A stretch of 64,000 bases of DNA from Parasphingorhabdus flavimaris (GTDB lineage: Bacteria; Pseudomonadota; Alphaproteobacteria; Sphingomonadales; Sphingomonadaceae). The stretch is from NCBI RefSeq assembly GCF_013371215.1, contig NZ_JABWMH010000003.1, positions 652,501-716,500 on the forward strand, read 5' to 3'. The translations under genes and the position numbers were made by a program. Every line of letters begins with the position of its first letter. The first letter of the stretch is position 1. The notes under the pieces are model-generated. The model did not search any database, was not told the origin of the DNA, and saw nothing but the letters and a program-made list of their open reading frames with translations. Of the stretch, positions 33,864-43,827 are shown one piece after another.

Positions 33864-35651
33864 CTACTTTGTGGCCGTCGGCCACATTCCCCGTCCAAAG
33901 AGCTGTTGAGGGGCGATCCGTCTTTCCGGTGCCGAGAACCCGAATAGTTGGCGCTGTATAGCCCAGTCAGTAGGAATATTCGACTCGAGTACGATTTTGC
34001 GCGTTAAGGTTGTAGGCTGAGTACCGTCGAGGATGGCCGTCACGATGTCCGGTGCAAGATAGTTCAATCGGATCAGGCGAGCAAAAAACGTGGGTCGGCA
34101 ATTTTGTTTGTGGGCGAGTTCTTCAATCGACCACTCTCGATGCTCTTCCACCAGTCGCTGCGCTTTCCTTGCGCGCTGCACCAAATTCACGAGTTTCTTG
34201 TCGGGATTGGCTACCTGCGAGTTACTTTGTGGTTTGATATGCAGCGAAGGCCAACGTTCTGCCGTCACAGTACGGGCAGCAACTTCAAACTCATAACGGG
34301 TGTCGCTGCATGGCCAATCAGCTGGTCGCCCTCGAAAGATAGAGTTGTTATCCCAAAGCAGGAATCGCCGCAATTCCAGCGATCGGACGTAGATTGCTAG
34401 TCTCTCCTCACCTACTTCAATCTTATAAATTAGTGCCGCAAACAGCTCTTCCAACTTTTCCGATGGTGTATTGTTAAGACGTATGGCGGCTGCTTTGCCT
34501 CGCGTAGACAATTCATGCAGTTCGTCATCATAAACCCCGAGGCCTTTGAGTGCGCTTCGGAGCCTGCCCCGATCGCTAAAAAAATCACAGACCGACGCAA
34601 AAATGAGCGTGTCCAGATTGTCTGCGTTACAGCGATAAGCACGGCGATATTCTCGTTGGGACCAATATGCATTGCTTGACACATATGCGCAGTAGGTCTT
34701 GCCTCGATGCCAGTTAAGATCCAACCGCATCTTGCGTCCGAGATCATCCCACAATAATCCGGCCAAGAAATGTTTTGTGTCCCTAGCATCAGCAGGACGT
34801 TTTTTTCTCTTGGCGCTCAGTGCCTGAGCCGCCTCCCAATCCTCTTGTGAGATGATAGGTTCATGAATTCCCTTATATGTGGTGCCTATTCCTCGAATTT
34901 CTCCGACATAAATAGGATTGCGAATTATACCGTATACCGTGCCGGCACTCATAAGAGTTCCACCACGAGCATTGCCTTGTTTTGTCAATTTGACTGAGCT
35001 GCAGTATCCAGCTTCTCGCACAGCCGTCATTACAGCTGTGTAGCGCCTAGTTTGCAGAAACTTTTTGAATATAAAACGAACGATCGCTGCTTCGGCCTTG
35101 TCGATGCTCAGTCCATCTTTAGTGGAAATGTAGCCAAATGGCGGCAAACCTCCATGGACCAATCCGTGTTTTTTGCGAGTGCGGAGACTATCGCGCGTCC
35201 GTTCGGAAATCAGTTCACGCTCAAACTGTGAGAATGTGAGCAGGATGTTCAGGATCATACGCCCCATACTATCGGAGGTATCAAATGCTTGGGAGATCGA
35301 GGTCAATGTTATGTTTTGGCGATCAAAAATCTCAATCAAGCGGACGAAATCAAACAGACTCCTCGTCAACCTATCGATTTTGTAGACTACTACCGCATCC
35401 ACTTTGCCCGCTTCTATGTCATGCATCAGTTGCGCCAGCGCCGGCCGTTCCAATCCGCTGCCTGAATGACCTCCATCATCATAGCGATCAGTCAACTCTA
35501 CCCAACCTTTATACTGCTGGCTTTTAATGTACGCGCTGCAGATTTCACGCTGTGTCACTAGAGAGTTCACATCATGATCGAGACGTTGGTTCGAGCTTTT
35601 TCTTGTGTAGATTGCGCACCGTTTGATCGGACTGGTTTGGTCCACCGACAT
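33864..35651 (-). CDS. Large serine recombinase
   Basis: A 595-aa site-specific recombinase. The N-terminal resolvase domain shows YTRKSS with catalytic Ser19, the VVYKIDRLTRSLFDFVRL helix and FSQFERELISERT. The recombinase domain (GLPPFGYIS, NPIYVGEIRG) and a zinc-ribbon-like middle (AGLLWDDLGRKM) follow. The C-terminal 120 residues are basic, with a helix-turn-helix-like end (WSIEELAHKQNCRPTFFARL). GGAG lies 7 nt before the ATG. It is a second, unrelated recombinase in the same island, which suggests a nested insertion or an alternative excision route. Confidence 0.93.
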   Translation of the reverse strand: MSVDQTSPIKRCAIYTRKSSNQRLDHDVNSLVTQREICSAYIKSQQYKGWVELTDRYDDGGHSGSGLERPALAQLMHDIEAGKVDAVVVYKIDRLTRSLFDFVRLIEIFDRQNITLTSISQAFDTSDSMGRMILNILLTFSQFERELISERTRDSLRTRKKHGLVHGGLPPFGYISTKDGLSIDKAEAAIVRFIFKKFLQTRRYTAVMTAVREAGYCSSVKLTKQGNARGGTLMSAGTVYGIIRNPIYVGEIRGIGTTYKGIHEPIISQEDWEAAQALSAKRKKRPADARDTKHFLAGLLWDDLGRKMRLDLNWHRGKTYCAYVSSNAYWSQREYRRAYRCNADNLDTLIFASVCDFFSDRGRLRSALKGLGVYDDELHELSTRGKAAAIRLNNTPSEKLEELFAALIYKIEVGEERLAIYVRSLELRRFLLWDNNSIFRGRPADWPCSDTRYEFEVAARTVTAERWPSLHIKPQSNSQVANPDKKLVNLVQRARKAQRLVEEHREWSIEELAHKQNCRPTFFARLIRLNYLAPDIVTAILDGTQPTTLTRKIVLESNIPTDWAIQRQLFGFSAPERRIAPQQLFGRGMWPTATK

Positions 35652-35923: not shown

Positions 35924-37129
35924 TTACGGTGCGTTTACGGGGCGGTAAACAGGTAATGCGTTCTTCCGCTCATCAACTGAGGGATGGATTTCTGCTTCTC
36001 CGATGAGGCGAGGTTCCGCCCAAGGGACATAGTGCCAAAGTAGCGACCAGCGCTTCCACTCCCGGTGTCTAATATTTTTGGGGATGATCTCCAGCACCCA
36101 CCAGCCGGCCGTAAGCGATCTGTGAAGCATCCCGGTCGGTGAGGGCGGTTCATATTGATGCTTGCTGCCTTTGCGCGGTTTTCCGTAAGCTAGATGATTG
36201 AGCATCTGGGTGCTAATCTTGAGTCCTGCTTTCTTGGCCTCTTCGGCCATCCAGACAAGCGGATATTTGGACAGGGCGCTTTCTTTCTCCGGATAACCGC
36301 CGCCGACATCGGAATGGACGCCTGCAAACCAGACCTGCTTGATATCCTGATTCTTAGTCATGCTCTTGTTGAATGGATTTGGTTCGAATTTTTGCGGATC
36401 ATTCCACTTTGCGACGCGGAACATTCGGCGACGTTCATCAATCGCCAGTGCATGCCGGAACCGTGCCACCGAGGGGTTCTGAAGCGTATATGGCAATGTC
36501 TCGAGGCTTGGTATCCAGAACCGGTCAGGGCGAGGCACGAGAACCGAGGCAACAGTCTCCCAGAGACCGATAAGCTCGATCGGAACCCGGCGTGCTCCAA
36601 TCACGCGGGCAAAGTGCCATGCCAGATCAAGCTGATTGTCTTTCGCCGCTTTCTTGTAAGTTCCAAGCGCGCTGTCACTCATATTGATTTGCTCAGGCTC
36701 CAGTAGCCCGATCAAATGAATGAACCCGGCGAGAACTCTTGCCGTCCAGGCGCCCCGGCTGAACCCGAACAAATAGATGCGGTCGCCATTTTGATAGTTT
36801 TCAACGAGGAAGCGGTAAGCGCCGAGTACATTTTCATCGAGCCCAAAGCCAAAGGCGAGACCCAATACACCGACCAGTTTCTGGCGGAAGCGCTGCCACG
36901 GACTGATCCGGCTGATTGTACCAACACCCGGGCTGTAATAGACCAGCTGCTGTTGGCTTTTTTGCGCGATGCGGTAGAGCTTCAAGACATTGGAAAGATT
37001 GCGCCCCAGTTCATTGCCTGTTCCGTCCAGCATGATCACAAGATTACGCGGCGCGAACGACTTACGGGCAGGCTTAGATTTTGTGGACTTCGTTTCCGGT
37101 TTTGCTCCTACTCTAGGGCGTGAGGGCAT
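35924..37129 (-). CDS. DUF2235 alpha/beta-hydrolase
   Basis: A 401-aa protein of the DUF2235 family, which includes the T6SS phospholipase effectors Tle1. The nucleophile elbow is GFSRGA (Ser124). An early LDGTGNE block and HSDVGGGY (His272-Asp274) mark the family's active-site region. It has no signal peptide and a basic N-terminal tail. No T6SS genes are near. In this island it may be an accessory toxin or defence hydrolase, or simply a passenger. It is separated from the four-gene system by 297 bp, so it probably has its own promoter. Confidence 0.88.
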   Translation of the reverse strand: MPSRPRVGAKPETKSTKSKPARKSFAPRNLVIMLDGTGNELGRNLSNVLKLYRIAQKSQQQLVYYSPGVGTISRISPWQRFRQKLVGVLGLAFGFGLDENVLGAYRFLVENYQNGDRIYLFGFSRGAWTARVLAGFIHLIGLLEPEQINMSDSALGTYKKAAKDNQLDLAWHFARVIGARRVPIELIGLWETVASVLVPRPDRFWIPSLETLPYTLQNPSVARFRHALAIDERRRMFRVAKWNDPQKFEPNPFNKSMTKNQDIKQVWFAGVHSDVGGGYPEKESALSKYPLVWMAEEAKKAGLKISTQMLNHLAYGKPRKGSKHQYEPPSPTGMLHRSLTAGWWVLEIIPKNIRHREWKRWSLLWHYVPWAEPRLIGEAEIHPSVDERKNALPVYRPVNAP

Positions 37130-37426: not shown

Positions 37427-38080
37427 TCAAGGTATATTAGCAAAAAGATTGCCAGGGCCATGATCCTTCAGATGTTGGACGAATTGTCGCACAGCCTTCG
37501 CTGATTGAGAGACAGTCAGTTTGCGAGCCAATCCATCCGGCTGTTCGCACACTTCAGCGTAAGTCTTCCCGCCGAATTCGTCGGGACAAAAAATCGTATC
37601 CCAATAGAATTCCCTTTGCCCCTTCGGTTCGGTCGCGAGCGTTCCTCTTGTTTCGCCAACAAAGGTCCAGACGTTAACGCCATCGCAGTAGCCGACAACA
37701 GCTTGCGCAATGGCGACCTCCCCCGGGCGGCCAACTCTTTCGAGAAATCCCTCAGCCTGCAGAGAATCCCACATCGGTTGCGTTAGGCCACCTGGGAATC
37801 CTGTCGAATCTTGCCCCTCAAAAATGAGGCCAGCATGTTCGACGATGCAAGGCGTAAGCAGCTGCCGGTAGGCTGACCGAACCTTGTGGTCGACCATCTT
37901 GCTCAACGATATTTCAAGCGGTTCGTTGGTAGCTACGTTGGTGAATTGTAAATCACAGTAATCGCCAATTGGCGTCGGGTCTGCTCTCTGTCCTACGCTC
38001 AACGGCTCTTTCCGAAGGATCGCGATCTCATCGCGTTTGAACGAGCTTGAAGTTGCGTAAAAGACCGTTGGTGGTTTCAT
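37427..38080 (-). CDS. HAM1/ITPase-fold protein with altered active site (KomB-like)
   Basis: A 217-aa protein of the HAM1 (non-canonical purine NTP pyrophosphatase) fold. Family marks: FYATSSSFKRDEIAIL (nucleotide P-loop-like start), ISLSKMVDHKV (helix), VEHAGLIFEG and WDTIFCPDEFGGKTYAEV. In active enzymes the third block begins with DDSGL or EDTGL, whose second acidic residue is the catalytic Asp; here it is His82. The C-terminal SHR motif, which contacts nucleotide, is SQS (191-193). I infer a binding rather than hydrolysing role. It is the last gene of the operon, overlapping the SIR2 gene by 4 bp; HAM1 plus SIR2 is the sensor-effector pair of Kongming systems. Confidence 0.85.
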   Translation of the reverse strand: MKPPTVFYATSSSFKRDEIAILRKEPLSVGQRADPTPIGDYCDLQFTNVATNEPLEISLSKMVDHKVRSAYRQLLTPCIVEHAGLIFEGQDSTGFPGGLTQPMWDSLQAEGFLERVGRPGEVAIAQAVVGYCDGVNVWTFVGETRGTLATEPKGQREFYWDTIFCPDEFGGKTYAEVCEQPDGLARKLTVSQSAKAVRQFVQHLKDHGPGNLFANIP

Positions 38081-38910
38081 GCGGACATTTCCTGAAGAAC
38101 CTTGGCCGTCGCGGCCGTGCGATCATCGCCGTAGGTCGGGATTACGGTGACATTCCGCCGCTCGAACAGCTTAAACTCGAAATCTGAAGGGTTGTGGGAA
38201 ATAATGTAGGCGCGCTTACCGGAGACACTGTCGGGCAAGGTATCAAGAGCCGCATTAATTAGCTCGAAAAGTAGCGCTACGTTCATATCATTGAAGCTAT
38301 AGCCGATGAACAGTAACACCCGGTTAAGCAAATCTGAGCGCAGCTTCCAGTCCAAGGGGCCGTCGAATTGCATCCGCCGATAGTAGTGGCGTTCTGATAA
38401 AACCATATCTTCTGGACGATTAAAGTCGCCGTGGTATTTCACCACCTGCGAAATGTTCCCATTGCTGATCATTTCTCGCTCGGAGGTTATGGCAACGGCC
38501 TCTCGCCCGCAGAGACGCAGCGACCGTTCTATAAAATCATCGTAGTTAGTGGTGTAAAAAAGATTGCATTGATCCAGCGACGCCATAGTCTGATGCAGTG
38601 TTGAATCTGCAAGCTCACCATCAGACGGATCCATTCGTCGAACAAGCCAGTTTGTAAGTGGTGAAAAGCTGCCTTTTGTAAGCCTAAAATACTCCAGAAT
38701 TTGAAGATCGCTTCCTCGCATCCTGAGGAGGTCAGGTTCGGGATATTTCATGATTTTGCAGGCCACATCGACCAGTTCGCGCCAAGATGGTCCCGTCACC
38801 TCTTCGCCGCGAAAATCCCATTTGAACGACATCGAAGCACCAGCTCCAATGAAAGGAATGACTCTACCGGCTCGATAAAGGGACCTCAGCTCTTGCGGGC
38901 AGGACTCCAT
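38077..38910 (-). CDS. SIR2-family NADase-like effector (KomC-like)
   Basis: A 277-aa single-domain SIR2 protein of the defence-associated type. The NAD-binding motif is VIPFIGAGAS (residues 17-26). Catalytic motifs are TTNYDDFIE (Asn122, Asp124) and KYHGDF (His160), with IGYSFNDMN at 202-210. All catalytic residues are present. It lacks the zinc module of protein deacetylases. Such SIR2 proteins in ThsA, DSR and Kongming systems destroy NAD+ once triggered and stop phage growth. It overlaps the methyltransferase stop by 1 bp and the HAM1 start by 4 bp. Confidence 0.92.
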   Translation of the reverse strand: MESCPQELRSLYRAGRVIPFIGAGASMSFKWDFRGEEVTGPSWRELVDVACKIMKYPEPDLLRMRGSDLQILEYFRLTKGSFSPLTNWLVRRMDPSDGELADSTLHQTMASLDQCNLFYTTNYDDFIERSLRLCGREAVAITSEREMISNGNISQVVKYHGDFNRPEDMVLSERHYYRRMQFDGPLDWKLRSDLLNRVLLFIGYSFNDMNVALLFELINAALDTLPDSVSGKRAYIISHNPSDFEFKLFERRNVTVIPTYGDDRTAATAKVLQEMSA

Positions 38911-39527
38911 TACGCAGGCTTCTTCGCAATAAGGCGCGTCAGTGAGTGATGATGCGGAATACCATTGTGTGGATGTGTCTCATGCAAATCAGTATCTGTA
39001 AGTACCTGGGTGTGCCAACCGCCGAACTTCCCCGCATACCAATCATGTGGCATTAGCAGTGGTTCAAAGCCGGGGTGAGCTGAGAGGTCCTGTGAGCGAT
39101 CGTTAAACGCTACGAGTATCACCGTCCCTTCAGGCTTAGTGAGGCGCTGCACATCATTTATCAAAGCGACAGCTTCTGCTTCAGAATTCATGCAATGTAG
39201 CAATCCGTAGGCGACGACCACATCATACGTCCCGTCAGATTGCGAGGCAGCAAAACTCGTAGCGTCTGCGATGTGCCAGTCAATAGGACTATTTCTAAAT
39301 ATGGATTTGCCATTCGTTATCGCATCCTGCGAACAGTCAACTGCAATCGCGGCCGCCCCGGCTGCTGTGAACGCACTCGCGTTCTTGCCTTCACCACACC
39401 CTAGGTCGAGAATGACATTTCCTCTTACAGAATGTTCGTCGAGAAACAGCTTAACAAGGCTGCCTGGGCTTTCGCCCCAAAAACACGGGACAGCGGAATA
39501 CCCGTCATCGTAACCACCGTTTTTCAT
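38910..39527 (-). CDS. Class I SAM-dependent methyltransferase of the SIR2/HAM1 operon
   Basis: A 205-aa methyltransferase. Motif I is VILDLGCGEGKNASAFTAAG (38-57), the acidic end of strand 2 is AVDCS (62-66) and motif IV is YDVVVAYGLLHCM. It resembles small-molecule methyltransferases (TehB/Methyltransf_31-like) more than DNA or RNA enzymes: there is no target-recognition domain and no NPPY motif. With a nucleotide-kinase fusion upstream and a HAM1 sensor downstream, a nucleotide or nucleoside is the inferred substrate. The start overlaps the upstream stop by 4 bp (ATGA). Confidence 0.88.
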   Translation of the reverse strand: MKNGGYDDGYSAVPCFWGESPGSLVKLFLDEHSVRGNVILDLGCGEGKNASAFTAAGAAAIAVDCSQDAITNGKSIFRNSPIDWHIADATSFAASQSDGTYDVVVAYGLLHCMNSEAEAVALINDVQRLTKPEGTVILVAFNDRSQDLSAHPGFEPLLMPHDWYAGKFGGWHTQVLTDTDLHETHPHNGIPHHHSLTRLIAKKPA

Positions 39528-41086
39528 TGTCTCAATCCTAATTTGGCCAGCATCTCATTGATTGCCTTCTCATATTCAACCAACCCAATCCAGTTATAAA
39601 GAATGACGTCGGCGTCTTGAATAATGTATCTCACTTGGCCTTCGACAGGCGCGTTATAGAGATCAACGAAAGAGTCAAAATCAATGTCCCTCAAACCATA
39701 GTCTTCACGCATCCGATACATTTCAAATGCGACATCAGGCGGGGTGTAGACGTACATGAGAGCCAACGGGACGTCCGACATCTCTTTAAGCTCTGCCAGC
39801 GTCTCTGGATGACGAATTCCATCGATGACGATCCGTTCGCCCGCTATTTGCCTCGCGGCGCTATCAAGAGCAGCTGCTAATTTCCTTGGCCCATCTGGTT
39901 TCGAAATGAATTCGAACGCCGCCTTTTGAAAGACAGCTCGATCAGACGCGGGCACTGGAGGAATACCAATTAGCTTAGCCAGCACCTCACCGCTGTTGAT
40001 CTGTTCGTAGCCAGCTCGATCGATTAACGCATTTGTAGTTGCGGACTTGCCCGAGCCAATCGCGCCAACGACACAGGCGATATGACGGCCTCGAAACACG
40101 TTTTGACGCTGTATTCTGTAACTAGGAGTGGTGCGAAGAGCTTGGGGATAGAACTCCCGAATACAAAGCTGCGACCAATACTCAAAGTCTGAAAGATTGA
40201 GTGGCTCATGCCTGGTATCAATCCAGCGAAGACGGTTGATGGACGCCTCTCCTCGTTGTGGCCTCTCCCATTTAGAAAAATCCTCAACCCAATATCGCAT
40301 GACAATGGCTAAATGACGGACACCAACCGCTGAGGAATTGTCATTTAAGACGCCCAAAATTTCTAACTTCTCTGGGTCAATCTGCGGGCGCCCAGAGGGC
40401 AGATTAATCTCCTCGCCAATCTCACGAACTGCGTTTGCTCGAATTCCCAAATCGGTCTGCGTGAAAAGGGAAAGATCGGCGTCAGTAACGTGACCACCAA
40501 AGCCAACGCACCTCGCGCCTCGCAGAAATGAGGCTGCACGGTTGTATTGCCCACGGACGAACGAGAGGATTTTCGTCTCGTGTTGAACGATCGTGTATGT
40601 AACGAACTGCTTGAGATCATCACGGGTTTCAGCCTCAGTTCGCGGAAGGTACGTCACCAACCGTCGGTCGAGAAGCTTCTCTGGCGACTCAAACGGGCCC
40701 AAGCCGATGCCCTGGAAATCCAAAATCGAGCGATATTTGTCTCGGTGAATCGCCAACACCTTTTCCGAACTTGGTGGTGCTTCACGTCGTGGGGCGGTAT
40801 AGACTTCGAGCCCTTTATCGGCGGCGCCCTCCTTGCCGAGAAGGTCGCGCAAGAAAAATTGACCTTTTGCAATTCGGACAAATTTAGATTCCGTACCGTT
40901 GCGGAGAATTTCCATGCTCAGCCGCGACTGCATGGATTTCTGAGGCGTCTTACTAATGTCCTGATCATCAAACAGTTGATCATCCAGGCCACGATCTACT
41001 AGCTCGGCTGCGCGTAGTGGCCGACCTACTTTACGCAGGACTGTCTCAGCAACCCAAAGGTATGTAGCTTCCCCTATGTTGGCCAA
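39524..41086 (-). CDS. HARE-HTH / Nudix / P-loop nucleotide-kinase fusion protein
   Basis: A 520-aa three-domain protein. Residues 6-82 form a HARE-HTH winged helix (YLWVAETVLRKVGRPLRAAE, ending FVRIAKGQFFL), a domain linked to modified DNA or RNA. Residues about 110-320 form a Nudix-like domain with GFGGHVTDAD (195-204) and REIGEEINL (221-229), an atypical Nudix box with a long insert. Residues 334-520 form a P-loop kinase: Walker A GAIGSGKS (341-348), IDGIRHPET (421-429) and a substrate-binding lid region, like deoxynucleoside-monophosphate kinases. Start is TTG at 41086; it is kept because the HARE domain begins at once. First gene of the operon. Confidence 0.85.
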   Translation of the reverse strand: MANIGEATYLWVAETVLRKVGRPLRAAELVDRGLDDQLFDDQDISKTPQKSMQSRLSMEILRNGTESKFVRIAKGQFFLRDLLGKEGAADKGLEVYTAPRREAPPSSEKVLAIHRDKYRSILDFQGIGLGPFESPEKLLDRRLVTYLPRTEAETRDDLKQFVTYTIVQHETKILSFVRGQYNRAASFLRGARCVGFGGHVTDADLSLFTQTDLGIRANAVREIGEEINLPSGRPQIDPEKLEILGVLNDNSSAVGVRHLAIVMRYWVEDFSKWERPQRGEASINRLRWIDTRHEPLNLSDFEYWSQLCIREFYPQALRTTPSYRIQRQNVFRGRHIACVVGAIGSGKSATTNALIDRAGYEQINSGEVLAKLIGIPPVPASDRAVFQKAAFEFISKPDGPRKLAAALDSAARQIAGERIVIDGIRHPETLAELKEMSDVPLALMYVYTPPDVAFEMYRMREDYGLRDIDFDSFVDLYNAPVEGQVRYIIQDADVILYNWIGLVEYEKAINEMLAKLGLRQ

Positions 41087-41320: not shown

Positions 41321-41806
41321 CTACCCAATTGCTGCCATTCCAGTATTTATCAGAATTGAGGCCTTGCTACCGGATTGCTTTTGAACTTTGTTTGCGACCT
41401 CTTCCATCGTAGCTAGCAGCCGGTTAATTTCAGAAACGGAATTCACCATAGCTGGTTCGTATCGAGAGATCAGGTATTCACGATTGTTAGCTAACGTTTT
41501 TAGATGGTCGGCAGTTTTCTTGCGTAGCACCAAGCCGTTGTTCGTAGATAATTCAGCGCGTCTTTGCATGTCGTGCTGTAGCGCGCGAATTTCACTCGGC
41601 TTCATTCCGTTTTGGAGCAAGAAACTGTTGAGAAACAGCTCGATCGCTTGAATAGCGCAAAGTCGAAAGGGAGCAGTTGAAAGAGGCTGTTTGGTCTTGA
41701 GTAGTCCACGCAGCGCAGTGGCGGCTTGCCGATATTCTTCAGCCAACGCTAAAATTTCTTGCGGCTGAGATACCTCGCCGGGATAGGGTTGTGCTGGACT
41801 GGACAT
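41321..41806 (-). CDS. HEPN-like helical protein
   Basis: A 161-aa all-helical protein. The stretch CAIQAIELFLNSFLLQNGM, then SEIRALQHDMQRR resembles HEPN domains (helix with AxELxLK, then HDL). The RNase motif Rx4-6H is not exact (RALQH), so activity is doubtful. It lies between the integrase and the four-gene operon on the same strand, with 234 bp to the operon start. It could be an ancillary defence protein or unrelated. Confidence 0.5.
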   Translation of the reverse strand: MSSPAQPYPGEVSQPQEILALAEEYRQAATALRGLLKTKQPLSTAPFRLCAIQAIELFLNSFLLQNGMKPSEIRALQHDMQRRAELSTNNGLVLRKKTADHLKTLANNREYLISRYEPAMVNSVSEINRLLATMEEVANKVQKQSGSKASILINTGMAAIG

Positions 41807-41862: not shown

Positions 41863-43029
41863 CTATCGTTCAGCAGCTTTCAGGCTTTCATCTATGAGAG
41901 TTGTGATGTCGTTCGCCGCAGCGATAATAGGTTCTGTCGCCAAATGAGCATAGCGGGCCGTCGTCTGAACCTGCGTGTGCCCAAGTAGCTTGCCGATCAT
42001 TGGGAGGCTCATGCCGTTGCTAACCGCAATCGAGGCAAAAGTATGCCGCAAGTCATGAATGCGTGCATCTTTAAGCCCAGCCCGTCCGCGCACACGTTGC
42101 CAGAACGGCTGGAGGTCGGTGAGATGGGCACCGGGATTGCGACCTACAATGACATATGGGTTGTCAGCGTACCGTTCAATTTGCTCAATCACATCAACCG
42201 CCGCCTGCCCAAGATGTACTGTTTTTGCACCGGTTTTGGAGTCAGGAAGATTCAACACATTATTGTCGAGGTCGACCCACTGCCATTCGAGTTTCATAAT
42301 TTCGTTGAGCCTGCAGCCGGTAAATAGCAGCAGTCGAACAGCTGCGATGGCGGATGGTAACTCGATATGTTCATTTTCCATTTCGGCCAGCACCCGCCCG
42401 ATGGATTGCAGCTCGCCTGCCGAGTAGTAGCGCTCACGCTTTTTTTCGGGATATTTTTTGATGTGGCGACGCGGGTTTGTTCCGTCAGGTCTCAATCCCC
42501 AGAGCTCAGCAAGGTTGAACATTTTCGATATAATCTCGAGATTGCGGTTTGCCTGATACGGCCGGTGCCGCCAATCATGATGAAATTTGGAGATGTCGGC
42601 TCGGGTGACATCAGTGATCCGCAATGACCCAATGGCAGGGAGTATAAACAGCTTCAGGTTACGCCGATATTCCTTAGCCGTGCTCGCTTTGAGATGGACG
42701 GCACAGTGTTCATCGTCAAATCTCGAGGCGAGTTCGCTAACGGTGAGGGCAGTGCGGCGCTCGCGCTTTTCTTGCAGTGGGTCGATGTCGTTGCGTATCT
42801 TCGCGAGGTTGTTCATCGCTAAACCTCGAGCCTGGTCGACCGTCATTGCTCCATATTGCCCGAGCGACATGCGGCGTGATGTCCGGCCATGCCGATATTG
42901 TAATACGAACTTGATCCGGCCGGTTGGAAACACGCGAACGCCAAAACCAGAGAGCTCGCTTTCCCAAATGAAATAGTCCTTGTCCTTTATCTTTAATCCT
43001 TCAATCATCCGCTTCGTCAGTTTCGTCAT
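41863..43029 (-). CDS. int: Tyrosine recombinase (integrase) of the tRNA-fMet island
   Basis: A 388-aa integrase. An N-terminal arm-binding domain (DUF4102-like, SGFGVRVFPTGRIKFVLQYR) is followed by a core-binding domain (about 95-190). The catalytic domain carries Arg240 (FTGCRLNEI), Lys265 (DSKTG), HDLRHTF (His325, Arg328), LLGHTQ (His351) and Tyr360. All catalytic residues are present. The gene starts 193 bp inside the right 46-bp repeat, reading into the island. It should recombine attL and attR to free the 39.4-kb circle. Confidence 0.95.
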   Translation of the reverse strand: MTKLTKRMIEGLKIKDKDYFIWESELSGFGVRVFPTGRIKFVLQYRHGRTSRRMSLGQYGAMTVDQARGLAMNNLAKIRNDIDPLQEKRERRTALTVSELASRFDDEHCAVHLKASTAKEYRRNLKLFILPAIGSLRITDVTRADISKFHHDWRHRPYQANRNLEIISKMFNLAELWGLRPDGTNPRRHIKKYPEKKRERYYSAGELQSIGRVLAEMENEHIELPSAIAAVRLLLFTGCRLNEIMKLEWQWVDLDNNVLNLPDSKTGAKTVHLGQAAVDVIEQIERYADNPYVIVGRNPGAHLTDLQPFWQRVRGRAGLKDARIHDLRHTFASIAVSNGMSLPMIGKLLGHTQVQTTARYAHLATEPIIAAANDITTLIDESLKAAER

Positions 43030-43422: not shown

Positions 43423-43827
43423 ATGACCCCGCAGATCATGATTGTCGAAGACGAGTTTCTCATAGCCATGGAGATGGAGCAGATCGTCGGCAATCTGGGT
43501 TACAACTGTATCGGCGTTGCCGATGACACCGAATCGGCGATCGAACTGGTTTTGAAAAAGCCCGATATTGCGATGGTCGATGTCAATCTGAGCGACGGGC
43601 CGACCGGTCCGGAAATCGGGGCACGCCTTGCCAATGAATATGATGTCAAGGTCGTGTTTGTTACCGCCAATCCCAAGCAGCTGGGGAACGGCGTCAAGGG
43701 CACGCTTGGCGCGTTGACCAAGCCTCTGGAGATCGAGGTGTTGAAAGACATGCTGGATTATCTGGTGAAAGTGGCAAACGACAGGGATGACGCTGAACCG
43801 CCGCGGAGAATGCAACTGTTCAACTGA
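43423..43827 (+). CDS. Single-domain response regulator
   Basis: A 134-aa CheY-like receiver only. The acidic pocket is E9-D10, the phospho-acceptor Asp53 lies in AMVDVNL, Thr81 in FVTAN and Lys100 in LTKP. It has no output domain. The adjacent HWE kinase gene points towards it (convergent, 6 bp apart), so the two are probable partners in a sphingomonad signalling branch. Confidence 0.9.
   Translation: MTPQIMIVEDEFLIAMEMEQIVGNLGYNCIGVADDTESAIELVLKKPDIAMVDVNLSDGPTGPEIGARLANEYDVKVVFVTANPKQLGNGVKGTLGALTKPLEIEVLKDMLDYLVKVANDRDDAEPPRRMQLFN

Follow-up and report, generated by a model that had tools for sequence, protein, structure and literature searches.

A Kongming-related HAM1-SIR2 operon of Parasphingorhabdus flavimaris with a candidate new alarm nucleotide

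A four-gene operon of Parasphingorhabdus flavimaris, lying in the 64,000-nucleotide stretch of DNA analysed here (the window), joins a HAM1-like gene and a SIR2 gene to a methyltransferase gene and a gene for a HARE-Nudix-kinase protein (HNK). The four genes are a conserved module, beyond what chance would give. By sequence comparison they look like a system related to Kongming yet separate from it, with the signal maker and the reading pocket both replaced, which predicts a new, perhaps methylated, alarm nucleotide. Our preferred reading, to which we assign a probability of about 0.58, is a mobile module for abortive infection: a modified purine nucleotide, not dITP, would be made or controlled by the methyltransferase and the kinase and read by HAM1, and SIR2 would destroy NAD+. 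The first-pass annotation, which named a methylated (deoxy)nucleoside triphosphate as the possible trigger, is partly supported in its interpretation.

The operon spans positions 37427–41086 on the minus strand in the order HNK, methyltransferase, SIR2 and HAM1, when read from its 5′ end (Table 1). The annotation's four overlapping minus-strand genes were described exactly, in gene order and in overlaps (4, 1 and 4 bp); its integrase beside the operon is indeed a tyrosine integrase nearby, although an ORF matching HEPN sits between the two. That ORF was considered as a fifth part and rejected, having no relative at the 84 loci searched, and is probably outside the system. The left edge of the island is set by GC alone, since four genus relatives share the right flank only and a search for direct repeats around the island found none, just two imperfect pairs. 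HNK has no match in the 5 same-genus genomes compared. Promoter scanning gave 8 sites against 5.2 in shuffled sequences, and terminator scanning 5 against 4.9.

Table 1. Features of the operon and its surroundings, in window positions
Feature	Position	Strand	Basis
HNK gene (HARE-Nudix-NMP kinase), 520 aa, TTG start	39524..41086	-	ORF, Pfam, predicted structure
HARE-HTH winged-helix domain, HNK residues 8-82	40841..41065	-	Pfam
Nudix domain, HNK ~residues 109-312 (RExxEE = 221-226)	40151..40762	-	predicted model + alignment
P-loop nucleoside-monophosphate-kinase-like domain, HNK ~residues 335-515 (GxIGSGKS, DGxR)	39542..40084	-	
Class I SAM methyltransferase gene, 205 aa, TehB-like fold, own His-rich C-terminal signature	38910..39527	-	
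SIR2-domain gene, 277 aa, KomC homologue, presumed NADase	38077..38910	-	
HAM1-like gene, 217 aa, KomB homologue, presumed dead receptor	37427..38080	-	
HAM1 codon 82 = His (catalytic Asp there in ITPases)	37835..37837	-	alignment
HAM1 codons 191-193 = SQS (base-reading motif; SHR in ITPase, SMR in KomB)	37502..37510	-	
ORF with marginal HEPN match, upstream of operon	41321..41806	-	Pfam, just above cut-off
Tyrosine integrase, right edge of low-GC stretch (~29-43 kb)	41863..43029	-	

The proposed kinship of HAM1 and SIR2 with KomB and KomC is borne out by profile matches to PDB entries and by phmmer. HAM1 matches Ham1p_like in Pfam (E 1.1e-16) and KomB in the PDB (8zsg; phmmer E 5.5e-28), with no HAM1 match in PADLOC (library from 2023); SIR2 matches SIR2_2 (E 2.7e-24) and KomC (8zsf; phmmer E 4.7e-45). 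SIR2 belongs to a NADase-effector family (PADLOC Thoeris ThsA, E 5e-19), also matches phrog_2695 (E 2e-15) and is presumed to be an NADase; its catalytic Asn and His are kept in 16/16 members. The SIR2 set leaves out L033, L034, L043, L046, L054, L069 and L093.

The HAM1 pocket is altered. Residue 82 is His in 19/19 members of the window clade, and because this replaces the catalytic Asp, which is likewise lost in KomB-like proteins, HAM1 looks like a dead receptor that would bind its ligand without cleaving it. Residue 193 is Ser and residue 192 Gln in 19/19, as against Arg and Met in 63/63 other KomB-like proteins (counts and tree leave out the fragments L033, L046 and L054). In ITPase, Arg178 is given a role in reading the 6-keto group of purines in an excerpt of one study (PMC5075207), and Asp72 and Arg178 are listed as crucial in part of another (PMC9016069). 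Use of the 6-keto-reading Arg as a criterion for Kongming was set here and taken from ITPase. Since that Arg is gone from the window clade and kept in all 63 proteins compared, the ligand is probably not dITP. The 19 HAM1 rows of window type form one clade (support 100/100, five phyla), as do the 17 SIR2 rows (100/100), in trees rooted by midpoint only. Pocket change and gene swap fall on one branch, so they count as one event, not 19.

In Kongming, the adenosine deaminase KomA and a phage deoxynucleotide kinase reportedly make a dITP signal that brings about NAD+ loss, and this system is reported to show that an unusual nucleotide can serve a cell as its alarm for infection. Excerpts of two papers (PMC12948488, PMC12774641) describe KomB, a HAM1-like protein without the catalytic Asp, and the SIR2 protein KomC as encoded side by side in one operon, with NAD+ depletion. 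The window module has the same adjacent HAM1-like and SIR2 genes in one operon, a HAM1 without the catalytic Asp and a presumed depletion of NAD+. It differs from Kongming in having no adenosine deaminase, in the extra methyltransferase and HNK with its own kinase domain, in the lost base-reading Arg, and in forming, in both trees, a clade separate from KomB and KomC of KomABC loci. Since the operon brings its own kinase domain, a need for the phage kinase by which Kongming is armed is no longer evident. The absence of the deaminase, noted at first reading, was confirmed: KomA-like matches are found in the flanks of 0/21 window-type loci (25 of the 80 scan loci have one, all outside the 21), and the PF00962 family is missing from the window genome by a search that was positive in 8/14 controls.

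HNK carries a HARE-HTH domain (Pfam E 1.3e-7; present in 16/16 members). In Pfam, its P-loop kinase part is below threshold (AAA_17 E 5e-4), and NUDIX is recognised in 3/16 relatives and not in the window protein. The predicted model (mean pLDDT 86) matches the Nudix hydrolase Tm1382 (3e57, TM 0.77 by target length) and the adenylate-kinase-related 3lw7 (TM 0.82); the kinase fold is close to that of an adenylate-kinase relative with bound AMP. The catalytic signatures of the Nudix, kinase, methyltransferase and SIR2 parts are intact, with RExxEE and the P-loop SGK, like the SIR2 residues, kept in 16/16. The Nudix part also has a match in phrog_8902 (E 5e-18), and HNK domains are similar to models of viral Nudix and NMP-kinase proteins. 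Viral contigs contain no relative of HNK or HAM1 by the respective profiles, nor do phage records contain one of HAM1; the methyltransferase profile gave a single 30 percent match (L121). Plasmid records hold partial HNK relatives (8 records, 0 reaching 80 percent coverage) and distant methyltransferases (16 records, identity <60 percent).

The methyltransferase (Methyltransf_25, E 9e-15; Methyltransf_11, E 2e-13; Pfam) is nearest to TehB and generic small-molecule enzymes by comparison and fold; that its substrate is a nucleotide is a guess from gene context. DNA methyltransferases of restriction-modification carry a [DNS]PP[YFW] motif, which inspection by eye did not find in this protein. 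Restriction-modification or base hypermodification of DNA was rejected as a role for the operon, given the small-molecule methyltransferase fold, the lack of a nuclease domain in the four genes (Pfam) and the lack of HNK or HAM1 relatives in viral contigs.

Conservation was assessed in a genome scan with the HAM1 profile. Two peptide patterns yielded 156 relatives, of which the best 80 were kept, so that locus counts come from a biased sample. Window-type HAM1 occurs among these 80 at 21 loci in five phyla, and the same four-gene neighbourhood is complete within ~4 kb at 16 of the 21, with one further copy reached from the kinase. Among the remainder, L054 has all four genes, three of them truncated; contig ends interrupt L034 and L043; L046 retains a fragment of HAM1 and an HNK cut at the contig end, with no SIR2 or methyltransferase match in 8 kb on the other side; and L033 has HAM1 alone. 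Wherever neither HAM1 nor SIR2 is cut among the 21, both enzymes are present (16/16 loci). Full-length HNK was found in 1/385, 1/396 and 2/398 genomes in three scans, the window's own genome being counted each time; the additional one, among 398 genomes, came from a profile search begun from the kinase protein and has the other three genes adjoining.

In the proposed mechanism HAM1 and SIR2, as their homology and catalytic residues suggest, would work together as a KomB/KomC-type receptor and NADase, the receptor binding a ligand other than dITP. The methyltransferase and the NMP-kinase-like domain would replace KomA and, with a host NDP kinase, start from a (deoxy)nucleoside monophosphate and arrive at a signal that is a methylated triphosphate, which the Nudix domain would hydrolyse in uninfected cells; the HARE domain would tie HNK to DNA or to its modification state. 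Infection would tip the balance, SIR2 would destroy NAD+ and the phage would be stopped. A built-in kinase poses a problem of self-toxicity, which the model answers by assumption.

A more specific version, tentative and on the unlikely side, takes the alarm to be N6-methyl-dATP or a closely related N6-methylated nucleotide of deoxyadenosine, so that the module would watch the methylated host genome. Phage would digest host DNA containing N6-methyladenine, or the operon methyltransferase would methylate the resulting dAMP; HNK would phosphorylate the product, the SQS pocket of HAM1 would read the 6-alkylamino purine and SIR2 would kill. MTH1 clears N6-methyl-dATP, and the Nudix domain would clear traces in a similar way. 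Several features hint at this: at four non-alphaproteobacterial loci the module is joined by a gene for a D12 DNA adenine methyltransferase, the window genome encodes a DNA methylase fused to RAMA, HNK carries a HARE domain, its kinase has a relative with bound AMP, and the residue that reads 6-keto purines is lost.

The enzymes could also be brakes, removing or masking low basal levels of an alarm nucleotide that is supplied by the phage or released when the phage causes DNA breakdown, and that is sensed by HAM1-SIR2. We consider this rather unlikely. HNK lies on the opposite strand at 6 of the 21 loci (L031, L032, L035, L037, L046 and L054) and at L129, so that HNK is not necessarily expressed together with the receptor and could act as a brake; the Nudix catalytic residues are intact, and 34 of 59 other HAM1-SIR2 loci, some contig-cut, have no deaminase match in their flanks, which suggests that the pair may not depend on a signal maker encoded nearby. 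Against this, both enzymes accompany HAM1 and SIR2 at each of the 16 window-type loci where neither is cut, and the receptor pocket changed on the branch where they appear, as would be expected of a new signal more than of an improved brake. An improbable further alternative is that the module guards DNA methylation, with HARE as the reader of host DNA methylation and the system fired by disappearance of the mark, not by a free nucleotide. HARE-HTH is suggested, in an excerpt of PMC11037411, to read adenine methylation or, more likely, cytosine modification, and D12 joins the module at some loci; but D12 does so on one sub-branch only, and the HAM1 receptor and its pocket change are left unexplained.

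Kongming with an unchanged dITP signal, its deaminase function supplied from elsewhere and the added enzymes tuning it, draws on the same homology to KomB and KomC, yet it is very improbable given the Arg lost in every clade member, the genome without PF00962 and the separate clade in both trees. Least probable is a nucleotide-sanitising or salvage operon with no defence role. Nucleotide housekeeping often employs HAM1, Nudix and NMP kinase folds, and the window genome has a separate housekeeping RdgB, which leaves the operon HAM1 free for another role; but the distribution of HNK is patchy, HAM1 is without the catalytic Asp, SIR2 is of an effector family and defence genes adjoin some loci.

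On the preferred reading of a modified alarm nucleotide, the HAM1-SIR2 receptor-killer pair may be a reusable chassis whose alarm could be changed by swapping the adjoining enzymes, and the module yields a sharp prediction about the receptor pocket. Were the alarm methylated, it would found a class of its own among immune signals, one that could report the integrity of methylated host DNA. Among the matches listed in the open full-text PMC literature, with subscription papers and most preprints outside that scope, no paper deals with the four-gene set.

Two-gene HAM1-SIR2 pairs (Pantoea, Stutzerimonas, Vibrionaceae) also have KomB and KomC homologues side by side but, unlike the window, lack both the methyltransferase and HNK, retain SMR as the base-reading motif and mix with KomABC loci in the trees. 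The PDB 9v0g group is a second HAM1 and SIR2 assembly, with both chains in the same entries, whose scores to the window proteins are below those of KomB and KomC. Thoeris pairs its SIR2 protein, which has an additional domain for ligand binding, with a TIR protein; ThsA shares the SIR2 domain with the window protein, which is without a second domain, and the operon is without a TIR gene (Pfam). Stand-alone HARE-Nudix proteins, on plasmids and in the window genome, have the N-terminal two-domain layout of HNK, without the kinase domain and, at three loci checked, without adjoining HAM1-SIR2. Kinase-only matches led to other systems.

The neighbour scan covered 114 of 156 neighbour ORFs and the first 25 of 125 PADLOC families. 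No defence match was seen at 4 of the 7 loci checked or among the checked neighbours of L036, L037, L039 and L040. Defence genes adjoin the other 3 (type I RM; RT_UG29-like with MzaA; HmaC), and L035 has an AriA/GajA-like ATPase as a neighbour.

The four-gene module is best regarded as a variant resembling Kongming and not as a member of it, because the deaminase KomA, present in that antiphage system, is missing from it and because its HAM1 protein has a reader pocket different from that of KomB. The first-pass annotation had proposed an immune operon working through a modified nucleotide; the core of this idea has gained support from Kongming kinship, gene linkage and a pocket change, while we infer its chemistry, trigger and phage protection.

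The description of the genes as one overlapping minus-strand unit was sound, the successive overlaps being 4, 1 and 4 bp. Pfam assigns HARE-HTH and a sub-threshold P-loop kinase to the first product (HNK, for HARE-Nudix-NMP kinase), and methyltransferase, SIR2_2 and Ham1p_like to the other three. Among 16 aligned HNK proteins Pfam finds HARE-HTH in all and NUDIX in three; the Nudix RExxEE, the kinase P-loop SGK and DGxR are kept in 16/16, and the Gly before SGK in 15/16. An AlphaFold2 model of HNK (mean pLDDT 86) matches the Nudix hydrolase Tm1382 as well as relatives of adenylate kinase, one of them AMP-bound. In SIR2, an Asn and a His are kept in 16/16, the His corresponding to the residue in the PDB entry named KomC(H146N). 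The nearest structures to the methyltransferase model (pLDDT 94.6) are a Methanosarcina methyltransferase and TehB; an invariant His-rich C-terminus is peculiar to the module's family.

Coordinates of the module, its neighbours and related loci (window positions unless a compared locus, L, is named; G, genome)
Feature	Position	Strand	Remark
HNK gene	39524-41086	-	
Methyltransferase gene	38910-39527	-	
SIR2 gene	38077-38910	-	
HAM1 gene	37427-38080	-	
Tyrosine integrase			right edge of low-GC stretch
Resolvase-type recombinase	33864-35651		within low-GC stretch
Tle1-like phospholipase relatives	35924-37129; L031:1668-2909; L032:1919-3163; L129:2704-3645		near four-gene module
Decayed or partial module copies	L054:4699-6308; L033:7983-8534; L046:7965-9124
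RNase_H-like-kinase fusions with following genes	L131:4694-8728 (G499); L135:3602-7639 (G756)
Kinase-adenylosuccinate-synthetase-like fusions	L134:4990-7237 (G1053); L136:4068-5684 (G160)
Stand-alone HARE-Nudix gene with following genes	L130:8980-12226		own genome, C3 ~627 kb
HARE-Nudix-type gene with neighbours	L006:1-12873		Agrobacterium Ti plasmid

HNK protein searches gave any match in 3/385 class genomes and 12/396 order genomes, at full length only in the window's own. A profile search matched 6 of 398 phylum genomes, with full-length copies in two, the window's own and G989, whose locus (L129) has all four genes, with the HAM1 frame interrupted. A KomB-type profile scan (one genome per species, 84,980 species) yielded 156 relatives via two peptide patterns, and the best 80 loci were compared with the four window proteins by tblastn. 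Window-type HAM1 (43-75 percent identity, best segment) occurs at 21 of these 80 (L027-L046, L054). The check proposed earlier, for the same neighbourhood elsewhere, returned the full set at 16 of the 21 and at L129; among the 16, the contig start truncates one gene at L037 and one at L044, and at L041 SIR2 is split in two. L054 retains all four genes, three of them truncated: SIR2 is mostly lost, HAM1 and HNK in part. Contig ends truncate L034 and L043; L033 has HAM1 alone of the four; and at L046 a C-terminal HAM1 piece lies beside an HNK that runs off the contig, and the 8 kb on the other side matched neither SIR2 nor methyltransferase. The remaining 59 loci have HAM1 and SIR2, with no tblastn match to methyltransferase or HNK. 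In 12 of the 16 full loci HNK leads the set on the same strand; at L031, L032, L035 and L037, as at L046, L054 and L129, it has the opposite orientation and faces HAM1 tail to tail. The nearest relative, in Pararhodospirillum oryzae (L027), has identities of 75 (HAM1), 83 (SIR2), 63 (methyltransferase) and 79 percent (HNK), which suggests horizontal transfer.

In Kongming, dITP made jointly by KomA, a phage-encoded kinase and the NDK of the host is read by KomB, and KomC responds by depleting NAD+ (excerpts of PMC12948488, PMC12774641). The likening of HAM1 and SIR2 to KomB and KomC is borne out by the best PDB matches of profiles and window proteins, KomB (8zsg) and KomC (8zsf), followed for the window proteins by a second HAM1 and SIR2 group (9v0g and others). 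The 19 four-gene rows of the HAM1 tree (83 rows) form one clade (support 100/100) spanning Pseudomonadota, Nitrospirota, Nitrospinota, Armatimonadota and Acidobacteriota; outside it, deaminase-linked and two-gene pairs are mixed. The SIR2 tree (82 rows) has the identical split (17 four-gene rows, 100/100), so the two proteins have diverged together; both trees have midpoint rooting only. The 9v0g group, a second solved HAM1 and SIR2 assembly distinct from KomBC, comprises PDB 9v0g, 9v0y, 9v0z, 9v12, 9v2k, 9v2m and 9v57. SIR2 genes on plasmids of rhizobia, Novosphingobium and Chelatococcus (L011-L014), with no annotated HAM1 neighbour, nest within the KomC side of the tree.

The deaminase had been reported missing, and tblastn with KomA, flanks covered, matched none of the 21 window-type loci and 25 of the best 80 of 156 (best segment partial at L066, L068 and L078); the window's genome has no PF00962 member by a search positive in 8/14 control genomes. 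Housekeeping RdgB is encoded elsewhere in this genome. In an alignment of 19 clade HAM1 proteins (window included), 63 others and one housekeeping RdgB, the position of the ITPase catalytic Asp (residue 82) has His in 19/19 clade rows and His or Gln in 63/63 others. Residue 193, where the SHR signature has its Arg, is Ser in 19/19, versus Arg in 63/63 others and RdgB; residue 192 is Gln in 19/19 versus Met in 63/63, and residue 12 Ser in 19/19 versus Asn in 62/63. In human ITPase the SHR Arg is essential and forms hydrogen bonds with N7 and the 6-keto oxygen (PMC5075207, excerpt). Since this 6-keto-reading Arg is Ser throughout the clade, the module's HAM1 ligand is likely not a 6-keto purine, and signal maker and reader appear to have changed together in this lineage. 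The four-gene clade being monophyletic, the pocket change is one evolutionary event, however clean. HAM1-SIR2 pairs lacking a deaminase match in the flanks covered were also met at 34/59 other scan loci (L009, L049, L062, L091 and L102 among those noted); such pairs keep the SMR motif.

The claimed accessory region with an integrase is recognizable as a stretch at ~29 to 43 kb, operon inside, with GC ~0.47-0.52 versus 0.54-0.60 outside. The right flank from base 43423 is common to four genus relatives (~76 percent identity), none of which has island content in the compared 20 kb; no HNK match came from five further genomes of the genus that were examined. The search for Tle1-like relatives, run over 84 loci, matched L031 and L032 only; a second search matched L129.

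Scanned with padloc, 114 neighbour ORFs from 15/21 loci gave matches to 125 families; among those listed (25 of 125) are type I RM, HmaB, HmaC, MzaA and AriA, and the MTase_II matches are the two D12 genes. Large neighbours (10 proteins) checked at seven loci include type I RM subunits beside the module (L030), RT_UG29-like and MzaA-like proteins (L041) and HmaC (L045), with no defence match at L028, L029, L032 and L042. An AriA/GajA-like ATPase occurs at L035; neighbours examined at L036, L037, L039 and L040 gave no defence match. Searches of viral contigs with the HNK and HAM1 profiles gave no relative, and neither did a search of phage records with the HAM1 profile. Single domains of the module are nevertheless not foreign to phages, since in PHROGs the Nudix part matches phrog_8902 and SIR2 phrog_2695, and among the proteins similar to the HNK model are viral Nudix proteins and, at lower rank, viral nucleotide kinases.

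On the Kongming model, in which KomA and kinases lead to dITP, the module's enzymes would methylate and phosphorylate a (deoxy)nucleotide. A D12-class DNA adenine methyltransferase gene (PF02086) overlaps the HNK start by 4 bp at L038 and 1 bp at L042, reaches its start region at L045 and follows HAM1 at L044; tblastn with two D12 proteins matched these loci only among 84. L129 gave no tblastn match, none was seen at L039 within ~4.9 kb upstream and 0.6 kb downstream, and each of L043 and L046 is truncated on one side. As the four D12-bearing loci share one sub-branch, the association may go back to one acquisition event. No D12 protein is encoded in the window's genome, which has one N6_N4_Mtase with a RAMA domain, the layout of CcrM, the usual N6-adenine methylase of Alphaproteobacteria. 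For HARE-HTH a role in reading adenine or, more likely, cytosine modification has been suggested (PMC11037411, excerpt), and MTH1, a Nudix enzyme, hydrolyses N6-methyl-dATP (PMC7152754). Together, the D12 neighbours, the RAMA methylase, the HARE-HTH suggestion and the MTH1 activity make N6-methyl-dATP a bold candidate alarm nucleotide, if an improbable one.

Several other arrangements were met. At L131 a P-loop kinase of similar type is fused to an RNase_H-like protein; the genes after it encode an adenylosuccinate-synthetase-like protein (PF00709) and a protein with weak likeness to dCTP deaminase. By eye L135 has a like layout, and this is possibly another modified-nucleotide system. A kinase domain is fused to an adenylosuccinate-synthetase-like domain at L134 (from Pfam; a second kinase precedes it) and L136 (by eye). 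The stand-alone HARE-Nudix gene of L130 is followed by an unassigned ORF, an AIR-synthase-like protein and a cytidylyltransferase-like protein, and the HARE-Nudix-type gene of L006 lies amid CHAT, caspase-family, TIR-domain and S8 peptidase genes.
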